A DNA stretch of 64,000 nucleotides from an uncultured Flavobacteriales bacterium (GTDB lineage: Bacteria > Bacteroidota > Bacteroidia > Flavobacteriales_D > Crocinitomicaceae): assembly GCA_943789205.1 (NCBI GenBank), contig CALSTG010000001.1:2098435-2162434 (forward strand). The letters are read 5' to 3'. The position numbers were made by a program, and so were the translations under genes. Each line of letters opens with the position of its first letter. Positions within the stretch are counted from its first letter, which is position 1. Of this stretch, positions 17,380-40,258 are shown piece after piece. A model generated the notes under the pieces. That model had not been told where the DNA came from. It worked only from the letters and a program-made list of their open reading frames with translations, and searched no databases.

Positions 17380-20300
17380 TTAACGCTTAATTATCTTTTC
17401 TACTCGAGTTAAATTCCCATCAAATACTCGAAGAGAATAAATCCCACTTTCAAAAGTAGAAAAAGGCATATTAAAGTCATGGATACCAGGTTCCATTTCT
17501 TCGTTTAGCTTATTGTAGACCATTCGACCGGTTTGGTCGTACAATTCAACGTAAATACTAGAGGTTTCGGATAAAAGTATTGAAATCGTAATATCCTCAT
17601 CTGTAGGATTGGGATAAACTGATACAAGAGCAAATCCAGATCCTTCAATATTCTTGCACTTGGTGTTGTTCTCTTGATTTATATCAAGGTAGGTTGAAAT
17701 ATTCGCATTTTGAGCCTCAACACATACAAAGCGTTCTGTTGCATCTTGATCAGAAATGAATGCTGACGGTTGCGCATTGAAAATATAGATTTCGCTTTCG
17801 CCTTGTAAGATGGAACCTGACCAATTCTCCTGTATAGGGCCATTTTCAGGTGTTTTAAGCGTTAGATTCAGGTTTTCTAATGGAATTGTACCAAGGTTTG
17901 CTATTTCAACCCCAACGGTCAAGAACCCGTTAATATCTTGAGCAAATAAAGTTTTTAGGTTGATATCATAAAATGCTTCATTGACCAATAAGGTTTTACT
18001 GATTGTATCACGACAACCGAAATCATTTATGGTCATCAGAATAATATCCAAATAAGAACCATTAAATGTATTCGAATAGCTTATATTATTTTCAATATTA
18101 TTGTTAAAGTTCAGACCATCACCATCACCAAAGTCCCAATAAGAGCTGTCTGCACCAAGGCTTGTGTTCAAAAAGTTTATGGGTATGTCCGAAACTAATA
18201 CTTGAGGATCGCACATTAAAATTTGCGCATTAAGCTCCTCGCTAACATCAACAGTAAATGTCGTATCAACGATACATCCTTGATCGCTTGTTGAACTTAA
18301 GGTAAGGAGTTGTATTCCTGTTGTTGGAAAATTGAAACTTGTATTTGTAGCAGTATCTTCGAATTGTAAATTAAATAGCCAATTTGTTTCAGTCAGTGAA
18401 CCTTGTGGAATTGTAGACAGATCTCAAATTCGTCCAAGTGTTTTTACATGCTGGTCCAACTTGATAATTGATAATTGGGTTAGGGTGTACTGTAATGTTT
18501 TGGATGGAGGTATCCATACAGCCATTATCGCCGTCAAAATGAGCTGAACTGTATATTCTCCATAATTCTCATAGATATTTACCTTGAACGGGATTGATAG
18601 AGTCTGTTTCGTCACCATAATTCCATTCGTAGGTCGTGATCTCGAAAGTATCTGCAATACTGCTATTGTCATGAATTCCAAGACTGCAATTCACAAGGGT
18701 TTGAAATAGAAGATGTCCGCTACAGGGGCTGGTTGAATAAAACTTCTTGGACTACTGTATCAATGCACATTATTGGTATCAATAGCAATAAGTTCAACAT
18801 CATAATTGCCAGTTAACCGAAGAGTATAAGGGGATACTTCAGTACTTGTATTGCCATTTTGTCCAAATTCCAATTGAAAGAATTCAGAGGAACATCATAT
18901 TCGTTCGAGGCCGCAAAGTTATTTCTTCATAAGGGCAGTAATTTGTCGGTTGAAAGCTGATATAGGTTTTGGATGACTTAATCGAAGTTTCTTTGACTTG
19001 AACAGCCTTCCAAAGTAGAAACCTCTAAGAAACCCAGCGTATAAACCTGAATCCTGATATATCTGAGCTCCTGACTTGAGAAAACACTGTCTAACTCACC
19101 AAATTCCATATCACTTGATCGATCGTATTACCCGGAGGCACAGTGCTAGTTTCAGAAAAGTTCAATGGACTTCCCTGACAAATCTCATTTTCAATCGAAT
19201 AGGATAGGGAAGGGGCAGTTCCGATAACCGTGACTTCGATGGTGTCAGAATTTTGGCATCCATTATCATTTGTAACATCAAGAATATAAATACCCGATGT
19301 ATCAATATTTAAATTAGATGTGGTGTCTTGAGTATTCCATAGCCAATTAGATATTACCGAAGTATCTTGAATCAATTGAATCGAATTTCCTGAGCAAAGG
19401 CTGGTGTCAAGACCGAGTGAAATGTTCTCTAGATGAGTTATCGATTGAAATAGTCGCAGTATTACTAGTTCTAGGCATCCTAGACTATCCGAAACGTATA
19501 TGATATGGATTCATTTTGATTTAAAATTCTAACTGGATTTGTATTTCCATCACTCCATTGAATGAAAGTGTAGTTTCCTTGTGGAAGATTTGCGCTAATG
19601 GTATCTGCTTCATTGAAACAAACTTGTTGGTTCTGGAGATGGATTTCATCATATGGAGGCCTTGATATAATAATTGAATCCCTCGATGTTCTTCCAAATA
19701 CGTCAACTGTTTCTAGCCAATAAAGTCCAGGATTACTAACGACGATTGATGAGTCTGTGCTACCCGTATTCCACAAATATGAATTGTAATAATTAGGACT
19801 AGAAATAGTGGTATCACAGAATCCATAATTTATTGAAAAATCTAAACCTAAATTAATTGAAGGAGCATATTTATTCATTAAAAAATTTTCTACAATTGAT
19901 TGTTCATTTTGAGATAAAATTCTGTCAAAAATTATGACTTCAAATATTTTTCCGCCAAAAAAGTAGCTTACTTGACCTTTTGCTGAACCTAATGTGAAAC
20001 CATCTAAATCGGAAAAAGATAAACTACCTTCAACCATAATATTTGAATTTTCATAGATTTTAGAATTTGGACCATCATAATTAAATGTAAAAAGGTTTGG
20101 TCCATAAACAAATGGATGATTATATCTGATAAAAGAACTGTTTGAAGTAAACGCGTATATATGATTAAGGGCATGTCGAAAGTTAAAAACATTGTTTCCA
20201 CCATCAAAAACAAAGTTACCATCATTATTATTTGAGTTTATTATAAATATTGTTGCTACATCAGTCAAAATAGAATCGTAAAGTACTTTCATCGTATTAT

Positions 20301-20574
20301 TAGTCCCATTAAACTCTATTGAGGGCATACCGCCGAGTTCGTTCTGTATTAATTGGGGTCTTTTTTCAGGTGCTGATTGAACCAAATTATAATTTAATGC
20401 ACTTAAATCTGTAATTTCTGAAATTATACCATTCGAATGAATTACGTTTTGAGAATTATACCAGCCAATTATACCCGGTATTTCTGAAGGGTTATTTTGA
20501 CCATTTACACTGAAAACAAATAGGGAACACATTAGAATAATATAATTTCTATTTAAAAGGAAGTAAAACATCAA
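17380..20574 (-). CDS. Large T9SS-exported LamG/PKD-domain surface protein (several frameshifts)
   Basis: Three ORF-track pieces (19480-20574, 19091-19375, 17380-18216) belong to one gene of about 1,064 codons. The N-terminal piece has a signal peptide ending SVNGQ, then a concanavalin/LamG-like fold (about 30-230: IPGIIGWYNSQNV ... FGGKIFEVIIFDRILS). Ig/PKD-like repeats follow (SYLWNTGSTDSSIVV; SNWLWNTQDTT; SSYWDFGDGDG), and the protein ends in a type A sorting domain (VYPNPTDEDITI ... GIYSLRVF). The frame of the last piece stays open upstream of its ATG to about 18400. Between about 18400 and 19480 the frame changes repeatedly. A surface adhesin or glycan-binding protein is likely. It has its own promoter. 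Confidence 0.75.
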
Positions 20575-20677: not shown

Positions 20678-21985
20678 TCATTTTATTTCTTTCATGGTGT
20701 CATGAATTTTAATAGAAAAGTCACGTACTCTTTTTATTCTAGAAAAGTTATTGATCTCGGAATCTTTTAGGTCATTTTTAATCTCTCTATTCTCATGATG
20801 TGCAATGTAAAATTTTGATATTTCATTTACTATTTCACTTTCTGTAAAGGTCATATATTGAACATTTCGGTCAGGGTAAAAATGAGTGGTTTTGTCAGGG
20901 TTCGAAAGAATTGTTAAAATGGGTTTTCTAGTAGCAGCATATTCATACAATTTGGCACCTAGGAGGTTATCTTTTTGGCCTGTAAAATCAAATTTCAAAA
21001 GAAGATGACATTTTAATTGTAATGTTACACTTTCTTGATGTGGTATTCTTTCATAGATTATTATTTCATCTTCATACTCTTTACTTAAATCAATAATTCT
21101 TTGTACTTGACTGTTGTGATAAAGTTTTATTCCAACAAAAATGACTTGGATATCGAAGCCAAGTGTATGTTTTATTTTTTTAAATGCATTAATAAAAGCA
21201 GAAACATTATGTTCTAAATAAATTGATCCAGTGTAACAAATGGAGAATTTTTTAAATTCAATAACATCATTAATATTGTTTAAAAGATCTAAATCAATTC
21301 CATTCTCGTGCAAATAAAACTTGGTTTTTTTAAAAGCTGAAACATTGTCTTTAATAATCTTCGGAGATGCAGCGGATGCGAATAAAGCATGTGTTAAGTA
21401 TTTATTTTCTCTTTTTCTTTCAATGATATTAAATAATTTATGTAATCCGTTTTTTTTTATGTGATTTGAAGACCATCCATCTCTATAATCAAGGATATAA
21501 GGAATATTAAATCTCATGTTTAAGTCATGAGCATATTTAAAAAAAACAAATGGTTCTCCAGTCGTTAAAATTAAATCAACTTTGTTGCCTTTTAGATAGG
21601 TCACAGCCCTTTTGTATATGAAATAACTTTCATCAAAAATTGGAAAGTTCCACTTTAAGAGAAGTTGCAATAGAGAAAATGTTTTTCGGATTAGTTTCTT
21701 GAATTTATTATTTCCGAATAACTTATGCTTTATACTACCCTTGTAATTTAGTTTTATTATTCTTCCAAAATCATCTTTTTTATCAATCTCGGGATGTTCA
21801 TCTTTTTTCAAAAAATCTTTTGGTTGCTTTATTTGAGCACTCCAATTTCGAGTTATTAAAGTTGTCTCAATATTATTTCGAGCAAAATATTTTCTCCATG
21901 CGTGTGGTCTTTGAGCACCAATTGAATTAAGTGGCGGGTAATCAAAACAAAGTATTAATAGTTTTATTTTTTTTTTTGAGCTCAC
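20678..21985 (-). CDS. Glycosyltransferase, GT-B fold (family 4-like)
   Basis: A 435-residue cytoplasmic or membrane-associated sugar transferase. The N-terminal Rossmann half opens LLILCFDYPPLNSIGAQRP, the usual GT4 start where the sugar acceptor is bound. The C-terminal half has FSICYTGSIYLEHNVSAFI and a nucleotide-sugar-binding region (GAKLYEYAATRKPIL) in which the canonical EAMA-type Glu motif appears as KLYEYAATRKP. Donor and acceptor are unknown. It is the last gene of the amidotransferase operon and overlaps the LpxD-like gene by 4 nt, so it probably adds the modified sugar made by its neighbours. Confidence 0.8.
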   Translation of the reverse strand: MSSKKKIKLLILCFDYPPLNSIGAQRPHAWRKYFARNNIETTLITRNWSAQIKQPKDFLKKDEHPEIDKKDDFGRIIKLNYKGSIKHKLFGNNKFKKLIRKTFSLLQLLLKWNFPIFDESYFIYKRAVTYLKGNKVDLILTTGEPFVFFKYAHDLNMRFNIPYILDYRDGWSSNHIKKNGLHKLFNIIERKRENKYLTHALFASAASPKIIKDNVSAFKKTKFYLHENGIDLDLLNNINDVIEFKKFSICYTGSIYLEHNVSAFINAFKKIKHTLGFDIQVIFVGIKLYHNSQVQRIIDLSKEYEDEIIIYERIPHQESVTLQLKCHLLLKFDFTGQKDNLLGAKLYEYAATRKPILTILSNPDKTTHFYPDRNVQYMTFTESEIVNEISKFYIAHHENREIKNDLKDSEINNFSRIKRVRDFSIKIHDTMKEIK

Positions 21986-22845
21986 TTTATTTTTTTTGCT
22001 GGGTTACCAATCCATGTTTCGTTTTCAGGAATATTTTTGACCACAACCGCACCTAATCCAATTGTTGCATTTTTTGAAACTTTGATTTTATTTCGAATCA
22101 GGGCACCTATGCCTAGAAAAACATTATCCTCGATGATCGATGAACCCGCAATGATAACATTACTTGTTAAAAGACAGTTTTTTCCAATTATACAATTGTG
22201 CCCGATATTGCAATAGGAGCCAATTTTAGTTCCCATGTTAATTACAGTGGTGCCTAAAGCAGATCTTCTTATTGTTGAATAAGGTCCTATTTCGACATTA
22301 TCTCCAATTTTCACACCACCAATTTGTGGGAATTTCACATAAGAGTCTGTCATAGAATCAAATTCTTGCCCTAGCCCTTCAGTACCAATTGAAGAAAAAG
22401 CGTTTATGATACAATTATTTCCAATAATAGAATTTGGGTAAATACTAACGTTATCATAAATAATGCACCCGTCTCCTATTTTAACATTTTCTCCAATAAA
22501 GACGTTCGAACCAATTTTTAATTTTTCGTTATCTCTGTGAATATTATGTAAATTTGTAAAGTAATCAGGTGTCAAATCTGAGAAAAATTTATGTACCACT
22601 TTGGCGAATGCTAACCGGGGATTTTCAACAACAAGGTATTCTACATTTTTTTTAGGTTTGATCTTTTGATAGGCTTCTCTGCAACAAATAACTGCGCCTG
22701 ACTTTATTTTATTCAAATTAGATATGTCTCTAGCCCAGGATAAACAAATACTTTTATTCGTAGAACTATTTAAAAGGCTATCAATTATAGAATTGTTATT
22801 ATTCTTTAAACCTAAAAAAGAAGCAATTTTTTTAATTGATGACAT
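21982..22845 (-). CDS. LpxD-like N-acyltransferase (left-handed beta-helix)
   Basis: A 287-residue protein. Residues 1-100 resemble the uridine-binding N-terminal domain of LpxD (VEYLVVENPRLAFAKVVHKFF). From about 110 there are ten or so hexapeptide turns of the [LIV]-G-x4 type (IGSNVFIGENVKIGDGCIIY ...), and the end IGLGAVVVKNIPENETWIGNPAKKI is the classic cap. Canonical LpxD transfers 3-hydroxyacyl chains to a glucosamine amine in lipid A. Because it sits inside a glycan operon and not in an lpx/fabZ cluster, I think it acylates an amino sugar of the surface glycan. The N-terminal half should recognise a UDP-sugar. Confidence 0.75.
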   Translation of the reverse strand: MSSIKKIASFLGLKNNNNSIIDSLLNSSTNKSICLSWARDISNLNKIKSGAVICCREAYQKIKPKKNVEYLVVENPRLAFAKVVHKFFSDLTPDYFTNLHNIHRDNEKLKIGSNVFIGENVKIGDGCIIYDNVSIYPNSIIGNNCIINAFSSIGTEGLGQEFDSMTDSYVKFPQIGGVKIGDNVEIGPYSTIRRSALGTTVINMGTKIGSYCNIGHNCIIGKNCLLTSNVIIAGSSIIEDNVFLGIGALIRNKIKVSKNATIGLGAVVVKNIPENETWIGNPAKKIK

Positions 22846-22854
22846 TATTCAGTC

Positions 22855-23388
22855 TTACTTTTCAACTTGTTTTCCAGGAATCCCGATATATGTAGAATTT
22901 GCTTCACAGTTTTTATTAATAAATGCAAGAGAACCTATAACCACGTTATCACCTATTGATATTCCATGTTGTAAAACTGCATTAGTTCCTATGAAGCAAT
23001 TTTTTCCAATTTTTGCCCCTCCAATTTGGTTTTTGGTTGTGTTGAGGTTATTTGTCATAACCCTTGGACATACGTATGTTCCGTCTCCTATTTCAACTCC
23101 TCTCGCAATTATCGAATCATATCTTAAAGTAACATTATTTCCTATTTTACAATTGCCCGAGGAAGACACTCTAGAATCAATCACACAATGGTTACCGATT
23201 ATTGTATTACTTCTCAATTCAACAAAATTTTTGATGTGAGTATCATTACCAACAACAACATTTTCCTTAATTATACAGTGATTTTCAATAATTACATTAT
23301 CTCCAATTTGGACATCATCTTCGATTATTGTAAACTCACCAATTTTAACGTTTTTACCTATTGTGGCTCTTTCTGATATTATATTCAT
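22855..23388 (-). CDS. Hexapeptide-repeat acyltransferase (WlbB/WbpD-like)
   Basis: A 177-residue left-handed beta-helix protein made almost entirely of hexapeptide turns (ATIGKNVKIGEFTIIEDDVQIG ... IGTNAVLQHGISIGDNVVIG). It is close in length and layout to WlbB/WbpD, which acetylate the 3-amino group of UDP-2-acetamido-3-amino-uronic acids. The ending FINKNCEANSTYIGIPGKQV is the usual C-terminal cap. Ten nucleotides separate it from the LpxD-like gene. The acceptor sugar is inferred only from the operon; an O-acetyltransferase is the main alternative. Confidence 0.7.
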   Translation of the reverse strand: MNIISERATIGKNVKIGEFTIIEDDVQIGDNVIIENHCIIKENVVVGNDTHIKNFVELRSNTIIGNHCVIDSRVSSSGNCKIGNNVTLRYDSIIARGVEIGDGTYVCPRVMTNNLNTTKNQIGGAKIGKNCFIGTNAVLQHGISIGDNVVIGSLAFINKNCEANSTYIGIPGKQVEK

Positions 23389-23403
23389 ATTGTATTTAAT
23401 TTA

Positions 23404-24039
23404 TTAAAGTATCCATCTTATCACTTCAAAGCATTCCGCATATTTTGCGTTGATTTGAACCCCTCTTGTTCTTGCTAATGATTTAACAAACTCCTCATTT
23501 GCATAAGCCCTGTGGGCTTGTGATTGATATTGTTTGATTGCATCAATTTTTTGTGCAATATGCTTTTCTCCGAGCTTCATGAATGATGCCGTGTTGAAAC
23601 TCAAATTATTCCATGGTAATTCATATGATAACAAACTACTGAATTTAAATGCTCTAAATCCCTCTTGAGCTATTGTATAGTGATCTTGGTGAAGGTCAGT
23701 TAGAGCCGGTATAAAAACAATATCAGGTTGAATATCTTTTTTGAGATTTAGTATGTCATCAAGAATTTCTTGTCTATGGAAATTAAATGTTCTTACATTG
23801 TAGTCGAAAAGAATCAAATTTTCTTTCTTTATTCCAAGAATTTCACTGGCAGCCTTGATTTCGGTAATTAAAATATCCTCTGGAAATTCTTTCCGTACAG
23901 ATTGTTTGCATGCTGAAAACGCTGCACAAAAGACCGTGTTACCTTCTTCTATAAGTTTAGCGACAGTAGCTCCACAACCAAACTCAAGATCATCTGTATG
24001 AGGAGCAAGTACTAAAATTTTCTTTTTCGTAATATTCAT
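23404..24039 (-). CDS. PIG-L family N-deacetylase
   Basis: A 211-residue zinc deacetylase of the PIG-L/LmbE family. The first zinc motif is APHTDDLEFGCG (a variant of AHPDDxE) and the second is DLHQDHYTIAQEG (HxxH-type). Members remove N-acetyl groups from amino sugars such as GlcNAc-PI, mycothiol precursors or teicoplanin. No signal peptide is present, so it works in the cytoplasm on a nucleotide- or lipid-linked sugar. Its start overlaps the wbpG-like stop by 4 nt and two acyltransferase genes follow, which suggests deacetylation followed by a different acylation. Confidence 0.82.
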   Translation of the reverse strand: MNITKKKILVLAPHTDDLEFGCGATVAKLIEEGNTVFCAAFSACKQSVRKEFPEDILITEIKAASEILGIKKENLILFDYNVRTFNFHRQEILDDILNLKKDIQPDIVFIPALTDLHQDHYTIAQEGFRAFKFSSLLSYELPWNNLSFNTASFMKLGEKHIAQKIDAIKQYQSQAHRAYANEEFVKSLARTRGVQINAKYAECFEVIRWIL

Positions 24040-26507: not shown

Positions 26508-27694
26508 TTTTCAATTAATTGTTTAAATGATTTATCGAAATCCATTTTAACGATGTTCCAGTTTAAACTTGTTTCAAAAGCTCGCCTACCATTCATTCCT
26601 AATTCATCGAGATTCGAACGATTTTTTGCTAGATTATTTATTTCCTTTGCAATACTATATTGATCAATTAATTCAATTGTTTTGCCCGAATTATATTTAG
26701 AAATAATTTTTGTATTTTCGGGTGAATTAGATCCCAAAACACATATTCCTGCAGCCATATATTCTGTTACTTTATTGGCTAAAGCATATTTTTTCGAGAG
26801 ATTTATATGCTTTATAAGCATTATTCCAATGGAAGCTCCGGAAATATATCGAAGAAGTTTTTCGTAGGGCAGTAGATCTTTGAAATAAATTTTGTTATTA
26901 TTTGAATTGAGATTTTTTAATTCAGTTTCAAGTGGCCCATTACCGATTATTACAAGTATAATATTCTCATCAAAATATTGGGAGGCTTTGACTATTTCTC
27001 TTAAATATCTGCCTTCATTTAAAGCGCCATGATATAGCACAATTATTTTTTTTTTATCTATATCTAAATCCTCATAAATAATAGTGTTTTTATGAAGATC
27101 AATGTACTCTGGGTAATTCGGAGTAATGATAATATTTGAAACATTATATTTTTCTTTTATATAGAATTTATAATTTTCGTTTGTAGTTAGAACTAGGTCT
27201 ACAGTTCTTATAAACTTCCTCTCCCAAAGTTTTGAAAAAAACCGCATTTGGATTAACAAAGTTTTGAAGATGATTTTTTTAAAAAAGGATACTTCAGATG
27301 GGAAATGTTGATTTAACGTTTCAACGTATAAATCATGAACATCATAGATTATTTTTGTTGCTATTGTTCTTAATTTGTAGGCAGCATATGAAGTGGGTAG
27401 GTCATGGGCGTATATTACATCGTAAGATTTTCCAATTTCTTGAACCTTGGGAATTAAGAACATACTCTCAAGATAAACTAGAGAATGATTAATTATTTTT
27501 CCTTTAATCGATAACTTTGGACGTTTTATTGGATACAAATTAATTTTATCATTTACTAATAAGTTTAATTCATCGATTTCGTCTCCAATAAAGAAATAAT
27601 CAATAGTGACATTTTCATTGGCCATAGAACTGATAGTTCTTCTTGCTCGGCTGTCATTGATCCCGGCCAATGATAACACACATATATAATTCAT
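26504..27694 (-). CDS. Glycosyltransferase family 4-like protein
   Basis: The ORF extends to 27739, but the better start is the ATG at 27694 (MNYICVLSLAGINDSRARR), which overlaps the stop of the acyltransferase by 4 nt (ATGA) and gives a 396-residue enzyme. It has two Rossmann halves: YDVIYAHDLPTSYAAYKLR in the first, then IIVLYHGALNEGRYLREIV and VTEYMAAGICVLGSNSPE in the second, the last being the donor-binding EMAAG motif. Donor and acceptor are unknown. It heads the eight-gene tightly coupled run down to 20678. Confidence 0.83.
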   Translation of the reverse strand: MNYICVLSLAGINDSRARRTISSMANENVTIDYFFIGDEIDELNLLVNDKINLYPIKRPKLSIKGKIINHSLVYLESMFLIPKVQEIGKSYDVIYAHDLPTSYAAYKLRTIATKIIYDVHDLYVETLNQHFPSEVSFFKKIIFKTLLIQMRFFSKLWERKFIRTVDLVLTTNENYKFYIKEKYNVSNIIITPNYPEYIDLHKNTIIYEDLDIDKKKIIVLYHGALNEGRYLREIVKASQYFDENIILVIIGNGPLETELKNLNSNNNKIYFKDLLPYEKLLRYISGASIGIMLIKHINLSKKYALANKVTEYMAAGICVLGSNSPENTKIISKYNSGKTIELIDQYSIAKEINNLAKNRSNLDELGMNGRRAFETSLNWNIVKMDFDKSFKQLIEK

Positions 27695-28275
27695 TCTTTC
27701 AAATTCATTTTTAATTCTTCCAATTCCTTCAACCACCATTTTGATCTCAGTCTATCTTGTATTTCGTCATCATCAAATCGATATCTAATCAGTTTCGCAG
27801 GCGTACCAGCAAATATTGCATAGGGCGGTATATCTTGGTTGACAAAGCTATGTGCTCCAATGACACAACCATGCCCCAATTTTAGACCCGACATAATCAC
27901 AACATTAGCTGATATTAAAACATCGGCCCCAATAATTATCGGGGAGGATTTTTCCATTTTGTTCAATTTTGGATTTACAGACAAACCATCAAGTTGATGG
28001 TTATCTAGACCAATTTTAACGTCGTGAGAAATACATGAATAGTTATCGATCAGTGAGCAGTTTAAAATTTTTGTTCCATCTCCAATATAAACGTGTTTTC
28101 CAATTGATTTAATTTCATCCGAAATAAAACAGTTTTTTTTAATAACAGTACCCTTATCTATGTTTGTGTTTTTTGGTACAAATGATTCCAATGTACATTC
28201 GGGGAATCGAGTTTTATTCTTCCAGTGAATAGAAAAATAGGTACGTAAATCCAATAGTAATTTTTTTATTATCAC
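27691..28275 (-). CDS. Sugar O-acyltransferase (hexapeptide, WbbJ/NeuD-like)
   Basis: A 194-residue left-handed beta-helix acyltransferase. After a basic N-terminal ~45 residues there are hexapeptide turns (NIDKGTVIKKNCFI, VYIGDGTKI, IIIGADVLISANVVI) and the cap SFVNQDIPPYAIFAGTPAKLI with the GxPAK motif typical of serine/sugar acetyltransferases. DNHQLDG holds the likely catalytic His. It probably O-acetylates the surface glycan. A degraded copy of its first 45 codons lies on the far side of asnB (30110-30253), so this gene or its predecessor has been duplicated. It follows asnB by 16 nt. Confidence 0.8.
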   Translation of the reverse strand: MIIKKLLLDLRTYFSIHWKNKTRFPECTLESFVPKNTNIDKGTVIKKNCFISDEIKSIGKHVYIGDGTKILNCSLIDNYSCISHDVKIGLDNHQLDGLSVNPKLNKMEKSSPIIIGADVLISANVVIMSGLKLGHGCVIGAHSFVNQDIPPYAIFAGTPAKLIRYRFDDDEIQDRLRSKWWLKELEELKMNLKE

Positions 28276-28291
28276 TGATTAAAAAAAGTTT

Positions 28292-30088
28292 TCATTGTTT
28301 TTCAAAAAGTGATTTGTAAGCGACTAATATTTTCCATTTTGAAGTATAATCCGAGGTAATAAATTTATTTTCGATTAACGATTGTTCTGCGTCTTTTAAT
28401 ATTTCTTTAAAAAATTTATTTTGCATCCAAGAATCTTGGGGCGCTTGAAATCCAATTTTATCTCTTCGATAAGTAATTTCGGAAGGAAGAATGTCGCTCA
28501 TCGAGGTTCGTAAAATTGATTTCGACCAACCATGATACAATAAATATGAACTAGGTAGTGAGAAAACAAATTCAACTAATTCATGATACAGAAATGGAAG
28601 TCTAACTTCAACAGAGTGAGCCATTGAATTCTTGTCCGCAAAACGAAGGAGTTTTTCAAGGCCTTGGTTATTCATTTCATGCTTGAGTGCTGATTTGAGA
28701 TCTGTAAATTGTTTAAAAGGTGTATTTTTATTTTTGAATTCCGCATAAAAATCAGGGTGTATTCCTTTAGGTCTTTTGTTAGATATTTTTTTTGCTACTG
28801 AAGAAACAAATTTATGAGTTTGAGGAGACCTTAGTAATAATGAATCTTTAAAATTAAGAGTTGTATTGGTGCTATGATTCATGTTTATTAAATTATTAAT
28901 CCTCAACCTTTCGGGTTTATTATTTATTAATTCTCTGATATAGAATTGAAAATCCTTTGTGTATCCACACAAGAATTCATCTGCTCCTTGTCCATCGAGC
29001 ATTACAGTAACGCCCTGTTTTTTCGCCTCTTGATAGACACAATATTGAGCATAAATACTTCCCGTTTGGAAGGGTTCTTCTTGATGATAGATTAGTCTTT
29101 CTAACTCTTTAATTAAGTCCATTGCCTGAACATTAACATTAAAGTGTTTTGTTTTAAACCTGTTTTGAATAATTTCGATGAATTGTCCCTCATCTTTTGA
29201 AAAATTCTTAAATCTAGCGGAAAATGTTGCGTTTTCATTTGAAAGTTTTGAAACTAATGCAACGATGCTACTAGAGTCCAGTCCTCCAGAAAGAGATGAT
29301 CCAACTTTTACATCGGATCTTAATCTTCTTTCAATAGATGTATTTAATAACTCTTTGAACCTGTCAGATGCTTCTGAAAATGACATATCTACTGAATCAC
29401 TTATTACAATATCCCAATAACGCGATTGTTTTATTTGCTTTCCACCTTTATAAATAAAAGAATGGGAAGGTTTTAATTTATTTATCTCCTTGTAGAAGGT
29501 TTGTTTTTGGTCATGAGGATTTTCAACTAAGTCAAAATGCAAATAATTGAAAAGTAAATTTTCATTTATGCTCTTATCAATTCCTATTTCCAACAGCGCT
29601 TTAATTTCTGAGGCAAAATAAAAGTCACCATTGTAAAATCCGTAATAAAATGGTTTTTCTCCGAAACGATCTCGGGCACAAAACAGTTCATCTTTTATTT
29701 CGTCATAAATTGCAAACGCAAACATTCCATCTAACTTTTGAAGCATATCTGTTCCCCATGTTTGGTAAGCTGCCAATAAAACTTCAGTATCAGAATCTGT
29801 TGAGAATACAACGTTTTTAATTTCAAGTTCCTTTTTTATTTCGAGGTAATTATAAATTTCTCCATTGAAGGATGTTGTGTAATCACCTCGAGTCATTGGT
29901 TGAGCAGCGTTTTCAGATAGATCAATTATTGAGAGTCTATTATGGCCGAGTATTACTTTTTGCCTTTTAGAATACCAAGTTCCATTTCCATCTGGTCCTC
30001 TATGTGACATTTTAAGCTTCATTCTCTCAATTGATTGCAAGTCAAAAGAGGAATCACTATTTCGCCATATTCCGCTAATTCCACACAT
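28292..30088 (-). CDS. asnB: Asparagine synthase-like glutamine amidotransferase
   Basis: A 598-residue two-domain enzyme. The N-terminal nucleophile is Cys2 in MCGISGIWRN, followed by the glutaminase core (SHRGPDG, SFNGEIYNY). The synthetase domain has the PP-loop SSLSGGLDSSSIVAL near residue 268 and PFLYHELVEFVFSLP further on. In glycan loci such proteins (WbpS and relatives) amidate the carboxyl group of a uronic acid rather than making free asparagine. Its position between glycan genes favours this role, but sequence alone does not exclude ordinary asparagine synthesis. It is flanked by two copies, one broken, of the acyltransferase 5' end. Confidence 0.82.
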   Translation of the reverse strand: MCGISGIWRNSDSSFDLQSIERMKLKMSHRGPDGNGTWYSKRQKVILGHNRLSIIDLSENAAQPMTRGDYTTSFNGEIYNYLEIKKELEIKNVVFSTDSDTEVLLAAYQTWGTDMLQKLDGMFAFAIYDEIKDELFCARDRFGEKPFYYGFYNGDFYFASEIKALLEIGIDKSINENLLFNYLHFDLVENPHDQKQTFYKEINKLKPSHSFIYKGGKQIKQSRYWDIVISDSVDMSFSEASDRFKELLNTSIERRLRSDVKVGSSLSGGLDSSSIVALVSKLSNENATFSARFKNFSKDEGQFIEIIQNRFKTKHFNVNVQAMDLIKELERLIYHQEEPFQTGSIYAQYCVYQEAKKQGVTVMLDGQGADEFLCGYTKDFQFYIRELINNKPERLRINNLINMNHSTNTTLNFKDSLLLRSPQTHKFVSSVAKKISNKRPKGIHPDFYAEFKNKNTPFKQFTDLKSALKHEMNNQGLEKLLRFADKNSMAHSVEVRLPFLYHELVEFVFSLPSSYLLYHGWSKSILRTSMSDILPSEITYRRDKIGFQAPQDSWMQNKFFKEILKDAEQSLIENKFITSDYTSKWKILVAYKSLFEKQ

Positions 30089-30109
30089 GGTTAATATATT
30101 TCTTTAGGA

Positions 30110-30253
30110 TTAAGAAAAACATAGATTTTTTTAATAACCATACCCTTATCTATATTTATGTTTTTTGGTAAAATTATTCTAAAGTACATTCGGGAAAGCG
30201 ATTTTTATTTTTCCATTGAATAGAAAAATAGGTGCGAATATCCAAAACTATTT
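30110..30253 (-). pseudogene. Decayed copy of the 5' end of the 27691-28275 acyltransferase
   Basis: The stretch between asnB and the upstream glycosyltransferase aligns base by base with 28130-28265. On the minus strand it reads LKKIVLDIRTYFSIQWKNK, then RFPECTLE, a stop, and after a one-base deletion LPKNINIDKGMVIKK. The intact gene reads KKLLLDLRTYFSIHWKNK, RFPECTLE, VPKNTNIDKGTVIKK. By eye about four of five bases agree. There is no ATG, a stop and a frameshift are present, and the homology ends near 30110, so it is a relic and not a gene. Confidence 0.85.
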
Positions 30254-32398: not shown

Positions 32399-32408
32399 AT
32401 TTTAATCT

Positions 32409-33839
32409 TTAATTGAGTTGAGTTTTTCTCTGATATTTTCTTATTTCAAAGTATGAGTAGGTCAAAATAACTACACAACAGGTAATTTTTAAAAGTATTA
32501 ATCTAGAGTATTCAATACTATCAATCACAAATTCAGATAAATTAAATACCAAGAATGTACAACTCAGGATTATTAAATAAAGTATTGGTTTAGTTAATCT
32601 AAAATGAATATTAAATAATTTTCTATTATATATATATTGAATTACTAACCAGATTACTGACCCTAAAAATGTACCGAATGCTACACCATAAATGCCATAA
32701 TCGATAACTAATAATAAGCTAATAAAAACATTACGTTCCTAAGAGAGACAAAAGAAGCGTAGGTGAATATACTTTGTTTTAGACAATATATGTAAACCCG
32801 TATTATAAAACAGATTATTAAATCCCTATAAATATTATAGATATACTTAAAAAGAATACCACCAATAATGCTTTGTTGTAGGCCGGTGCGAATACTTGAA
32901 TAAGTTCGTTGTTAAAAGTAAAAAAGATGAAAATAAACGGGAAAAGAAGGATCCAAGCAAAATCATGAAAAGATTGAATGATTTTTTTGAGTTTTGGATT
33001 GTCTTTCATACTCATTGCACGAGGAAACCAACCTAAGAGTAATGCAGAAAAAATCAAATTTAAAAGGCTACTTATTTTGGCACCAATTGCATAAATACCA
33101 AGCTCGTCAATAGAGCAATAATTCAAAATAATTTTTCGATCGAAAAAGGTTACCATTTGAAATAAAATGGTAACACCTAAGATATGAATAGAGTAGTTGA
33201 AAAGGTATTTGAATATGGTTAAATTCCAGGTAACAGTAATTTTTTTTCGAACTGCCAGAAATCCAAGAAGATTCATTATCCCACTGTAATCAAAGATGCT
33301 CTAAAGAAACCTATTACCCCCATTCGGTCATAGTAAACAAAAATAAACCCAAGTGAGACAATGAGAAATATGTTGATTAATGATAGTAAAAGGAAAATAT
33401 TTTTTTTGAATTCGCAGCGTAAAATTGACATTGAGAATGAAAAAAGCATACTTCCAATTACAATGAAAATATTAATTAAATATAATTCAAAGTTTATCTC
33501 ATTGTTAAAGACAGATGAAATGATTATGCCTTGTAGTGAAAACATGGATAGAAAGTATACTGCACTAATCATTAATAAAAAAGCTAAGATGGTACCTGTC
33601 AATGATTTAATTTCCGTTTTATAATCAGGGTAAAATCTAAGTAATCCTCCAATTAATCCAAATGGAAGTATCGTCATAAATAAATTGTTCCAGGTGAGAA
33701 AAATATCCATGATTCCATAGTCACCTTTGGATAGTATCCGAGTATAAATGGGAGTTAAGAAAATTGAGGCAAAAACACCGATGTAACTAGATAGTCCGTA
33801 TACGGCTGACTCTCCAAGAACTTTTTTAAGAATACTCAT
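32409..33839 (-). CDS. Wzx-type oligosaccharide flippase (at least three frameshifts)
   Basis: Two track ORFs (33276-33839, 32818-33276) and an unlisted 3' part make one ~477-residue MATE/Wzx polysaccharide exporter. The N terminus SAVYGLSSYIGVFASIFLTPIYTR is the classical start of the family. The middle continues FLAVRKKITVTWNLTIFKYLFNYS. Beyond 32818 I recover NLFYNTGLHILSKTKYI and then VFISLLLVIDYGIYGVAFGT to a TAA at 32409. Frame changes fall near 33275, 32818 and 32735-32760. It flips the lipid-linked glycan to the periplasmic side. With this many shifts in one gene, decay cannot be excluded, but the recovered parts keep their hydrophobic pattern. Confidence 0.75.
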
Positions 33840-33893
33840 TTTGTTTGCTATTCAATTTAATAGTTAACCCTTAAAATTTTGATTTTTTTCAAA

Positions 33894-35141
33894 TCAAAGA
33901 ATCATCCCCGCTCCTACGGTATTATTATTTGTTTCATCAATTAATATAAAAGACCCCGTATTTCTATTTGTTCGATAAGAATCAAAAAAGAGTGGGGTAG
34001 TGGTCTTGATTTTAATTCGAGCAATTCCATTTTTCTCTATGGAGTTCTGCCTTCTATTCTTTTCAATTCATTCAGGTCGACAACATAAACGATTTCTTTA
34101 ATAATTGCTCTTCCAGATCGTGTTGTATGCTGGATGCTATATTTTCCATTGAGTTGCATCGGGTTTTCTCCCATCCAGCAAATCATTGCATCAATTTCTT
34201 GACTATTTTGAGGTTGGTTGGTTGTTTTCACAATCATATCACCTCGGCTAATGTCAATATCATCCTCTAGTTCTATACTAATCGATTGAGGCGCATAAGC
34301 TTCTTTCAAATTCGAATCCCCACAATGTATTTTCTTAACACGGCTTTGCAGTTGAGAGGGTAGTGCCGTAACTTGATCCCCAATTCTTAAAATACCACTT
34401 GAAATACGTCCTGCATAGCCCCGGTAATCATGGTATTCATCCGTATGTGGTCTCAAAACGGTTTGAACGGCAAATCTAAAATCAATGTGATTAAGATCAT
34501 TAGCTACAGGTATGTTTTCGAGTGAATGTAATAGTGTGGGTCCATTGTACCACTCCATAGTTTCAGAGCGGTTTACAACATTGTCACCTTTTAAAGCTGA
34601 GATTGGAATGAATTTAAAATCTTGAATGTCTAATTTGGCTGCAAAATCTTTATATTGCTCCTTGATTTTGTCAAAATCAGATTGTTTGATAATCAACAAG
34701 ATCCATTTTATTGATACAAACCAAAACATGAGGTATTTGAAGTAAAGAGGCAATGTAGCTATGTCTTTTGGTTTGTTCGATGACGCCATTTCGTGCATCT
34801 ATTAAGATTAAAGCGGCATTTGCTGTGGATGCTCCAGTAACCATATTCCTTGTATACTGAATGTGCCCGGGTGTATCTGCGATAATGAACTTACGATTAG
34901 GTGTATTGAAATACCGATAGGCAACATCAATGGTAATACCTTGTTCTCTCTCGTCTTTTAAACCATCCGTTAAAAGTGAAAAATCAATTTCATCTAATCC
35001 TTTCTTTTTACTCGTATTTTCTATCGCTGCTAGCTGATCTTGAAAAATACTTTTTGAATCGTACAACAAACGTCCTATTAAGGTACTTTTACCATCGTCA
35101 ACACTACCAGCTGTTGTAAATCTTAATAATTCTCCTTTCAT
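33894..35141 (-). CDS. cysN: Sulfate adenylyltransferase subunit 1, CysN (two frameshifts)
   Basis: The GTPase subunit of ATP sulfurylase. ORFs 34677-35141 and 34037-34798 join near 34689 (removing one base gives [16 protein letters not shown]). A second shift near 34048 leads into an unlisted end, [18 protein letters not shown], then [20 protein letters not shown] and TGA at 33894. The restored gene is 416 codons, the normal size. Motifs: [10 protein letters not shown] (G1), ADTPGH (G3), NKMD (G4), then the EF-Tu-like beta-barrel. It works with CysD to make adenosine phosphosulfate, and it starts inside the formyltransferase stop (4-nt overlap), so the pair is separated from cysD by two glycan genes. 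Confidence 0.88.
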
Positions 35142-36870: not shown

Positions 36871-37775
36871 TTAAAAATAGCCTTCTTTTTTACGTTCTTC
36901 CATTGCAGCCTCTGATCTTTGGTCGTCTGCGCGATTTCCTCTTTCTGTTTCACGCGCTGCGGCAACCTCAGCAATAATATGATCAAGCGTACTTGCTTCT
37001 GATTCAACAGCTCCTGTGATTGTTAAATCTCCAATGGTTCTAAATCGAACAATTTCTTTTGTGACCTTTTCATTTGGTTTGAGTGTAATAAAAGGTGAGT
37101 TTGCCAAAATCGTATTGCCTCTTCTTATCACCTCTCGCTCATGAGAAAAGTATAGACTTGGTAATGCTATTTTTTCTTTCTTAATATACTGCCAAATATC
37201 CATTTCGGTCCAATTGCTAATTGGAAAAACACGGAAATGTTCACCAAATTTCTTTTTACCATTGAATAAGTTCCATAATTCTGGTCTTTGATTTTTTGGA
37301 TCCCATTGGCCAAAGTCATCACGATGGGAAAAAAATCGTTCTTTGGCACGTGCTTTTTCTTCATCTCTTCGTGCACCACCCATAGCCGCATCAAATTTAT
37401 TTTTCTCAATGGTATCGATTAGTGTAGGGATTTGTGCAGTATTTCGAGTCGCATGAACGCCTTTCTCGTCTTGAGCAAGACCATTGTCAATAGCTTCTTG
37501 TACACTCCCAACAACCAATTGAGCTCCAATTTTATCGAACCAAGTTCATCGCGAAATGCAATGGTTTCATCAAAATTATGTCCAGTATCTATATGAACAA
37601 GCGGAAAAGGAATCTTTGCTGGGTAAAAAGCTTTGACAGCAAGATGCGTAACAACGATTGAATCTTTTCCTCCTGAAAATAAAATACATGGGTTTTCAAA
37701 CTGAGCAAATGCCTCTCTCAACACAAATATGGACTCTGCTTCTAACTCCTCTAAATGTTCTAGTCTGTAGCTCAT
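36871..37775 (-). CDS. cysD: Sulfate adenylyltransferase subunit 2, CysD (one frameshift)
   Basis: ORFs 37419-37775 and 36871-37518 are one ~301-residue ATP sulfurylase small subunit. The PP-loop [13 protein letters not shown] and [18 protein letters not shown] are in the first piece. The second frame picks up as [17 protein letters not shown] near 37535, then [19 protein letters not shown], and ends [10 protein letters not shown], which is the typical C terminus of the family. One base is lost (or two gained) between GAACTTGGTTC and GATAAAATT. It makes adenosine phosphosulfate with CysN. It overlaps cysC by 4 nt. Confidence 0.9.
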
Positions 37776-39294: not shown

Positions 39295-40249
39295 CTAGGT
39301 GTTGAGGTAGTTTTGAACATAATCGCTTACGCCTTCTTCAAGGGTGTAGAATGATTTTGAGTAACCAGCTGCTATTAGCTTTTGCATGGAGGCTTCTGTG
39401 AAATACTGGTATTTATCTCGAATATCTAAAGGTGTGTCTATGAAGGATATTTTAGGTGCTATATCTAATGCTTTAAATGTAAGGCTCGCTAAATCATAAA
39501 AAGTGCGCGCCTTTCCTGTTCCAACATTATAGAGTCCAGAGGCCACTGCGGAATCAGAAAGAAAATTAAGTATGGACACCACATCTTTCACATAAATAAA
39601 ATCCCTAAGTTGTTCGCCATCTTTATATGCTTCATTGTGAGAACGAAACAATTGCATGCCTCCAGTTTTTTGAATTTGATTAAAGGTGTGTAATACAACG
39701 CTGGCCATTCTCCCTTTATGATTTTCATTTGGACCATAGACATTGAAGAACTTTACGCCAGCCCAGAAGGGAGGAGTCGCTGTTTGATTCAAAACCCATT
39801 TGTCAAAATTATTCTTCGAATCCCCATATGGGTTTAAAGGGCTCAATTTGTTTACAAGCTCATGTTTATCCTCGTAGCCATGCTCACCCAACCCGTAGGT
39901 CGCTGCGCTACTCGCGTAAATCACGGGAATATTATGAGCTGTGCAGGCATTCCAAATATCCTCGCTGTATTTAACATTTAAAGTCTCATGAATGCTGTAA
40001 TCCATTTCCGTGGTATCAGTTCTTGCACCGAGATGAAATACGAAATCAACTTTACTGTGGTTAATTGAAAACCAGTCAATAAATGCCGTTCTTTCAATTT
40101 TGGAATGAGCATTGAATATTTTTATGATTGCTTTCTTTATCCTTTCTCGAAAAGTCATCAACTAAAATGAGGTCATTTCTACCGGTCTGATTTAACTCTT
40201 GAGCAAGAAAGCTCGCGATAAATCCTGCAGCACCTGTAATGACTATCAT
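39295..40249 (-). CDS. hldD: ADP-L-glycero-D-manno-heptose 6-epimerase (one frameshift)
   Basis: The track gives 39295-40161, but the true start is the ATG at 40249: MIVITGAAGFIASFLAQEL is the NAD(P)-binding Rossmann start and joins the ORF after a one-base shift near 40105. The restored protein is ~318 residues, the normal size for HldD. The active-site YxxxK is PYGDSKNNF, and FFNVYGPNENHKGRMASVV is specific for HldD. It makes ADP-L-glycero-D-manno-heptose for the lipopolysaccharide core, so this organism probably has heptose in its LPS. It sits 9 nt after the deoxynucleoside kinase. Confidence 0.88.
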
Positions 40250-40258
40250 AATTTTTGT

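Follow-up and report, generated by a model that had tools for sequence, protein, structure and literature searches.

The segment 30116-30273 (minus strand) of the window, by which we mean the whole analysed stretch of 64,000 nucleotides from an uncultured Flavobacteriales bacterium, is the decayed 5' fragment of an acyltransferase gene, lying in a mosaic glycan locus one gene away from an intact relative. On the minus strand the order is an upstream glycosyltransferase (GTup, 31495-30257), a gap of 168 nt, asnB (30088-28292), the intact hexapeptide acyltransferase (28275-27691) and a downstream glycosyltransferase (GTdown, 27694-26504), followed by an amidotransferase trio of the hisH-hisF-wbpG type (26507-24036). 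In related genomes GTup and GTdown form the left and right flanks of a slot. The acyltransferase begins with GTG 16 nt past the asnB stop and overlaps the likely true ATG of GTdown by 4 nt (ATGA). The open reading frame of GTdown is listed as starting at 27739, inside the acyltransferase, which is probably too early; comparison with relatives suggests that translation starts at the ATG at 27694, which overlaps the acyltransferase stop. The base composition of the asnB-acyltransferase stretch (about 30-33% GC) shows no clear contrast to that of its neighbours.

Intact asnB encodes a glutamine-dependent amidotransferase of the asparagine synthase family; its product exceeds the cut-off of TIGR01536 (asn_synth_AEB; 459.3 versus 267.1) and stays below that of TIGR03108, the XrtA/PEP-CTERM amidotransferase eps_aminotran_1 (373.3 versus 816.9). 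Judged by this family and by its neighbours, it probably amidates a uronic acid. The acyltransferase, of the left-handed beta-helix type, scores above the cut-off of the hexapeptide repeat PF00132 (53.2 bits versus 27) and below the NCBIfam cut-offs for the Vat/CatB type of antibiotic-modifying acetyltransferases (NF000311, 86.5 of 300; NF000490, 83.1 of 350), and its predicted role is probably the acylation of a sugar. Among the models matched by the trio, WbuX is above its cut-off and AglZ/HisF2, the best HisF match, is below; the wbpG-hisH-hisF combination points to acetamidino groups. Beyond the trio, at 21982-24039, lie two hexapeptide transferases and a PIG-L deacetylase whose identity to a block in two genomes of other genera (G351 and G814 in our numbering) is 56-86%, far more than the 34-44% of nearby glycosyltransferases, and this block has perhaps been transferred recently. 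Further along, at 17380-20574 (minus strand), a long secreted-type protein is found in several broken frames, and its end looks like a C-terminal sorting domain.

The original prediction had read the gap upstream of asnB as a relic of the acyltransferase 5' end, and this part of it is borne out. Within the window, blastn aligned positions 30273-30116 with 28284-28126 of the intact gene at 83.2% identity over 161 columns (E 9e-42). The local alignment score of 183 is far beyond chance, since the scores of 2000 dinucleotide-preserving shuffles averaged 24 (sd 3.2) and did not exceed 39. When the whole genome was searched with the acyltransferase, the remnant was the second-best match after the gene itself (E 3e-13, with three stops inside), and no further close copy was found there. 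The similarity starts within the last codons of GTup and stops about 27 nt before the start codon of asnB; about 50 codons are left of a gene which has 194 in its intact form. An acyltransferase which had lost only its middle was considered and rejected, because the spacer between remnant and asnB (30089-30115) resembles the 3' end of the intact gene no better than shuffles do at the DNA level (p 0.66). Read in the acyltransferase frame, this tail before asnB gives VFLNPKEIY-stop, which resembles the C-termini of some homologues (EFLNSI-stop).

Three lesions had been claimed for the relic, and they differ in weight. A nonsense codon is present as predicted: TAA stands at 30174-30176, where the intact gene has TCA. 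The one-base deletion is also there, beside 30170, but it could be a sequencing error, as it adjoins a T run and as several genes at 32.4-40.2 kb of the same assembly contain apparent frameshifts. Within 8 kb on the minus strand, such frameshifts were seen in a wzx-like flippase (two), cysN (two), cysD (one) and an NAD-dependent epimerase (one), in the regions 32400-33850, 33880-35141, 36871-37775 and 39295-40250, and the genes at 20.7-31.5 kb look intact. The frameshifts are probably assembly indels and possibly decay. The nonsense codon and the truncation are independent of the missing base. Finally, the remnant indeed lacks an ATG, having GAA at the position of the start codon; however, this is in itself no sign of decay, since the intact gene also does without an ATG and uses GTG at 28275.

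The way in which the two sequences differ suggests that they diverged largely while both coded for protein, before one of them died. Their differences are mostly synonymous (dN 0.09, dS 0.51 by NG86; dN/dS about 0.18 overall), with synonymous codons in excess (p 0.017), and in comparable codons 11 of the 18 differences fall on third positions, against 6.0 expected if the same changes were placed at random (p 0.008). The segment thus combines similarity to a functional gene and an open frame destroyed by TAA and truncation with a sign of past coding constraint, which rests on small counts and to which the branch of the intact gene adds a part. This bears on the idea of a local duplication, in which this lineage itself would have copied all of the intact acyltransferase, or just its 5' end, to the other side of asnB, where the copy then fell into decay. 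Such an origin would agree with the fact that the nearest sequence found to the remnant is the neighbouring gene, all other homologues having at most 47% protein identity. On its own branch, a copy which was dead on arrival should nevertheless have accumulated replacement changes about as fast as silent ones, and the ratio and the third-position excess given above, small as the 18 differences behind them are and with the intact gene's branch contributing, speak against it. The duplicate may instead have been long-lived and of full length and have died late. Taken as a whole, we consider a local duplication quite unlikely.

What do related loci hold at this place? We searched for asnB, GTup and GTdown in 240 genomes of the family and then read the loci; all comparisons are between species or genera, with 34-54% protein identity for the slot genes. 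In G340, G342 and G351, which belong to other genera, asnB stands alone directly between the same two glycosyltransferases and there is no acyltransferase. In G342 the genes are packed too tightly to accommodate a remnant, with asnB beginning inside the end of GTup and GTdown starting directly after the asnB stop. Other contents were also seen. In the slot of G126, asnB is preceded by two other genes, one FemAB-like and one deacetylase-like (L087 7915-9965), and followed by GTdown; that of G222 is empty, with GTup and GTdown joined directly, and that of G809 lacks asnB but holds a hexapeptide acyltransferase which is reversed and about 32% identical. In G388, asnB and GTdown lie on a contig which ends inside asnB, and GTup is cut at the end of another contig; G398 has asnB and GTdown without this GTup. 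G005 belongs to the same genus as the window and has another, different hexapeptide acyltransferase 3 nt before asnB (L053 8773-11208). A full-length orthologue of the remnant between GTup and asnB was not found in the other species among the 240 genomes, nor did any other genome show the order GTup-acyltransferase-asnB or this acyltransferase before GTdown. The best homologue of the acyltransferase outside the window is 47% identical, and nothing closer over most of its length was found in genomes of the genus (86), the order (399) and the phylum (396) or in GTDB contigs; viral contigs gave none either.

Could the gap be a functional leader of asnB and not a dead gene? It does lie directly upstream of asnB. 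However, where relatives have asnB directly behind GTup, overlapping it or no more than a few tens of nt away, they have no remnant-like sequence, and the similarity which we describe is to a coding sequence and has codon structure. An RNA element was ruled out as well, as the gap shows no unusual folding (z-score -0.33) and no Rfam match at E<=1. A leader is therefore highly improbable, and the expectation that the relic would not be a conserved functional element agrees with its not being found in related loci.

The same loci weigh on the direction of events. The history first proposed was the entry, by recombination, of a module of asnB and acyltransferase into a GTup-acyltransferase-GTdown locus, where it replaced most of the old acyltransferase. 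This would produce the observed order in one step. The ATGA overlap couples the intact acyltransferase to GTdown and the remnant begins right at the GTup stop, as if GTup, acyltransferase and GTdown had once been contiguous, and G809 is a case of an acyltransferase occupying the slot without asnB. A strain with the glycosyltransferase followed by a full acyltransferase and no asnB had in fact been predicted, and G809 corresponds to it loosely, but its acyltransferase is distant and lies in the opposite orientation. What counts against the module is asnB itself, which is found alone and tightly joined to both glycosyltransferases in the three genomes named above. In the asnB tree, the gene of the window groups with those of G342, G388, G340 and G126 (support 95/96), a clade of same-slot asnB genes from other genera. 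The asnB-only slots and this clade mean that the insertion of a module would need a lineage without asnB, which then acquired it from the same kind of locus. We therefore regard it as possible but unlikely, and not as the simplest account. On the same two grounds, asnB is well established in this slot across several genera; the acyltransferase is likely the newcomer, an accessory and unusual piece. The direction first proposed most likely needs reversing, in that the relatives make the acyltransferase, and not asnB, the later arrival. The asnB of G351 also sits in the slot but groups elsewhere, with that of G398, which means that asnB, too, has undergone exchange more than once.

Affinities change along the cluster. 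Among the 240 genomes, matches to GTup at E<1e-45 occur only in other genera; the GTup tree gives no polarity, leaving the window's position without resolution. In its tree, GTdown is placed together with G012 and G014, two genomes of the same genus as the window (98/99), although its identities are similar across all genomes (34-37%). The trio is 50-63% identical to G012 and G014 versus 36-46% in G340, G388, G809 and G126. By these comparisons, GTup and asnB appear to have their affinity with other genera, and GTdown, hisH, hisF and wbpG with two genomes of the same genus. The switch coincides with the position of the intact acyltransferase, between asnB and GTdown, and the pattern is imperfect: a partial hisH match in G351, of another genus, reaches 58%, and the trio of G105, of the same genus, only 37-46%. 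Thus the claim that the remnant marks a recombination joint holds in so far as the locus is mosaic and changes affinity, but the joint is probably elsewhere, between asnB and GTdown.

We hypothesize that two related clusters were joined near asnB, which left a redundant pair of acyltransferases whose upstream member decayed, and we hold this preferred history with somewhat less than even confidence. The junction of GTup and GTdown is a variable slot in a surface-glycan locus, and asnB would be its older occupant, with acyltransferase sequence on either side of it that the slots of asnB-bearing relatives lack. One of two related loci may have had an acyltransferase just before asnB, and the other an acyltransferase just before GTdown-hisH-hisF-wbpG. 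Recombination close to the 3' end of asnB would join both, and a single crossover would yield the order seen. The cluster would then contain two related acyltransferases, the downstream copy working and the upstream one redundant, and the latter would have been lost by a nonsense mutation and the deletion of its last three quarters. This history is built on what can be read directly, namely the remnant, the coding-type divergence, the gene orders of relatives, the grouping of asnB in its tree and the shift in affinities from one side of the intact acyltransferase to the other. From these we infer the joining event, its position and the redundancy, as we do the asnB substrate from family and neighbours; each historical step is reconstructed from distant states, with two parent loci that are hypothetical and an exact joint position that is not fixed. 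Alternatively, the order GTup-acyltransferase-asnB-GTdown came first, a second related acyltransferase was gained downstream of asnB and the first decayed in place. Such a stepwise course fits the coding-type divergence, the slot plainly gains and loses genes, and G005 has an acyltransferase directly before asnB. On the other hand, the acyltransferase of G005 is a different one and its asnB belongs to a different clade from that of the window, and closely related forms of a rare acyltransferase would have had to arrive on two separate occasions. We think this course rather unlikely; it differs from the joining of two clusters only in the number of events.

Remnants of this kind are known from other polysaccharide loci, and the one described here is a real and ordinary gene remnant, an ordinary trace of recombination. 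In Salmonella O-antigen clusters of groups B1 and D1-D3, remnants of wzy lie between intact genes and have been read as gain, replacement and serial deletion (PMC3715488). In both cases a decayed piece of a functional gene is found among intact polysaccharide-cluster genes, but in Salmonella many strains order the steps and the functional replacement in B1 lies outside the main cluster, whereas here there is one genome and the working relative is one gene away. In polysaccharide loci of Bacteroides fragilis, acetyltransferase genes are disrupted by a stop or frameshift in one strain (PMC3090145). There too a gene related to acetyltransferases is broken in a surface-polysaccharide locus; those, however, have been described as point lesions in genes that a second strain conserves, and of our gene about 50 codons are left next to a working relative. 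A parallel for asnB is WbpS (PGN_1234), an asparagine-synthase-like uronic acid amidotransferase of Bacteroidota which makes a uronamide sugar (PMC7468200). Both are asnB-type genes in a Bacteroidota glycan locus and by analogy likely catalyse the same general reaction, but WbpS homologues fall in eps_aminotran_1, unlike the asnB of the window, which passes TIGR01536 and not TIGR03108.

The remnant is a readable trace of the reshuffling of a surface-glycan locus, and it carries the caution that one genome is not enough to tell in which direction an insertion took place. Perhaps the junction of GTup and GTdown is even a preferred exchange site, at which genera swap asnB, acyltransferases and further decorating enzymes as single-slot cassettes, with the remnant recording one such swap; we find this idea doubtful. 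No mobile element came to notice in the slot. The content of the slot does vary between genera, from nothing to asnB, a reversed acyltransferase, or FemAB-like and deacetylase-like genes together with asnB, and these changes probably alter the decoration of the glycan.
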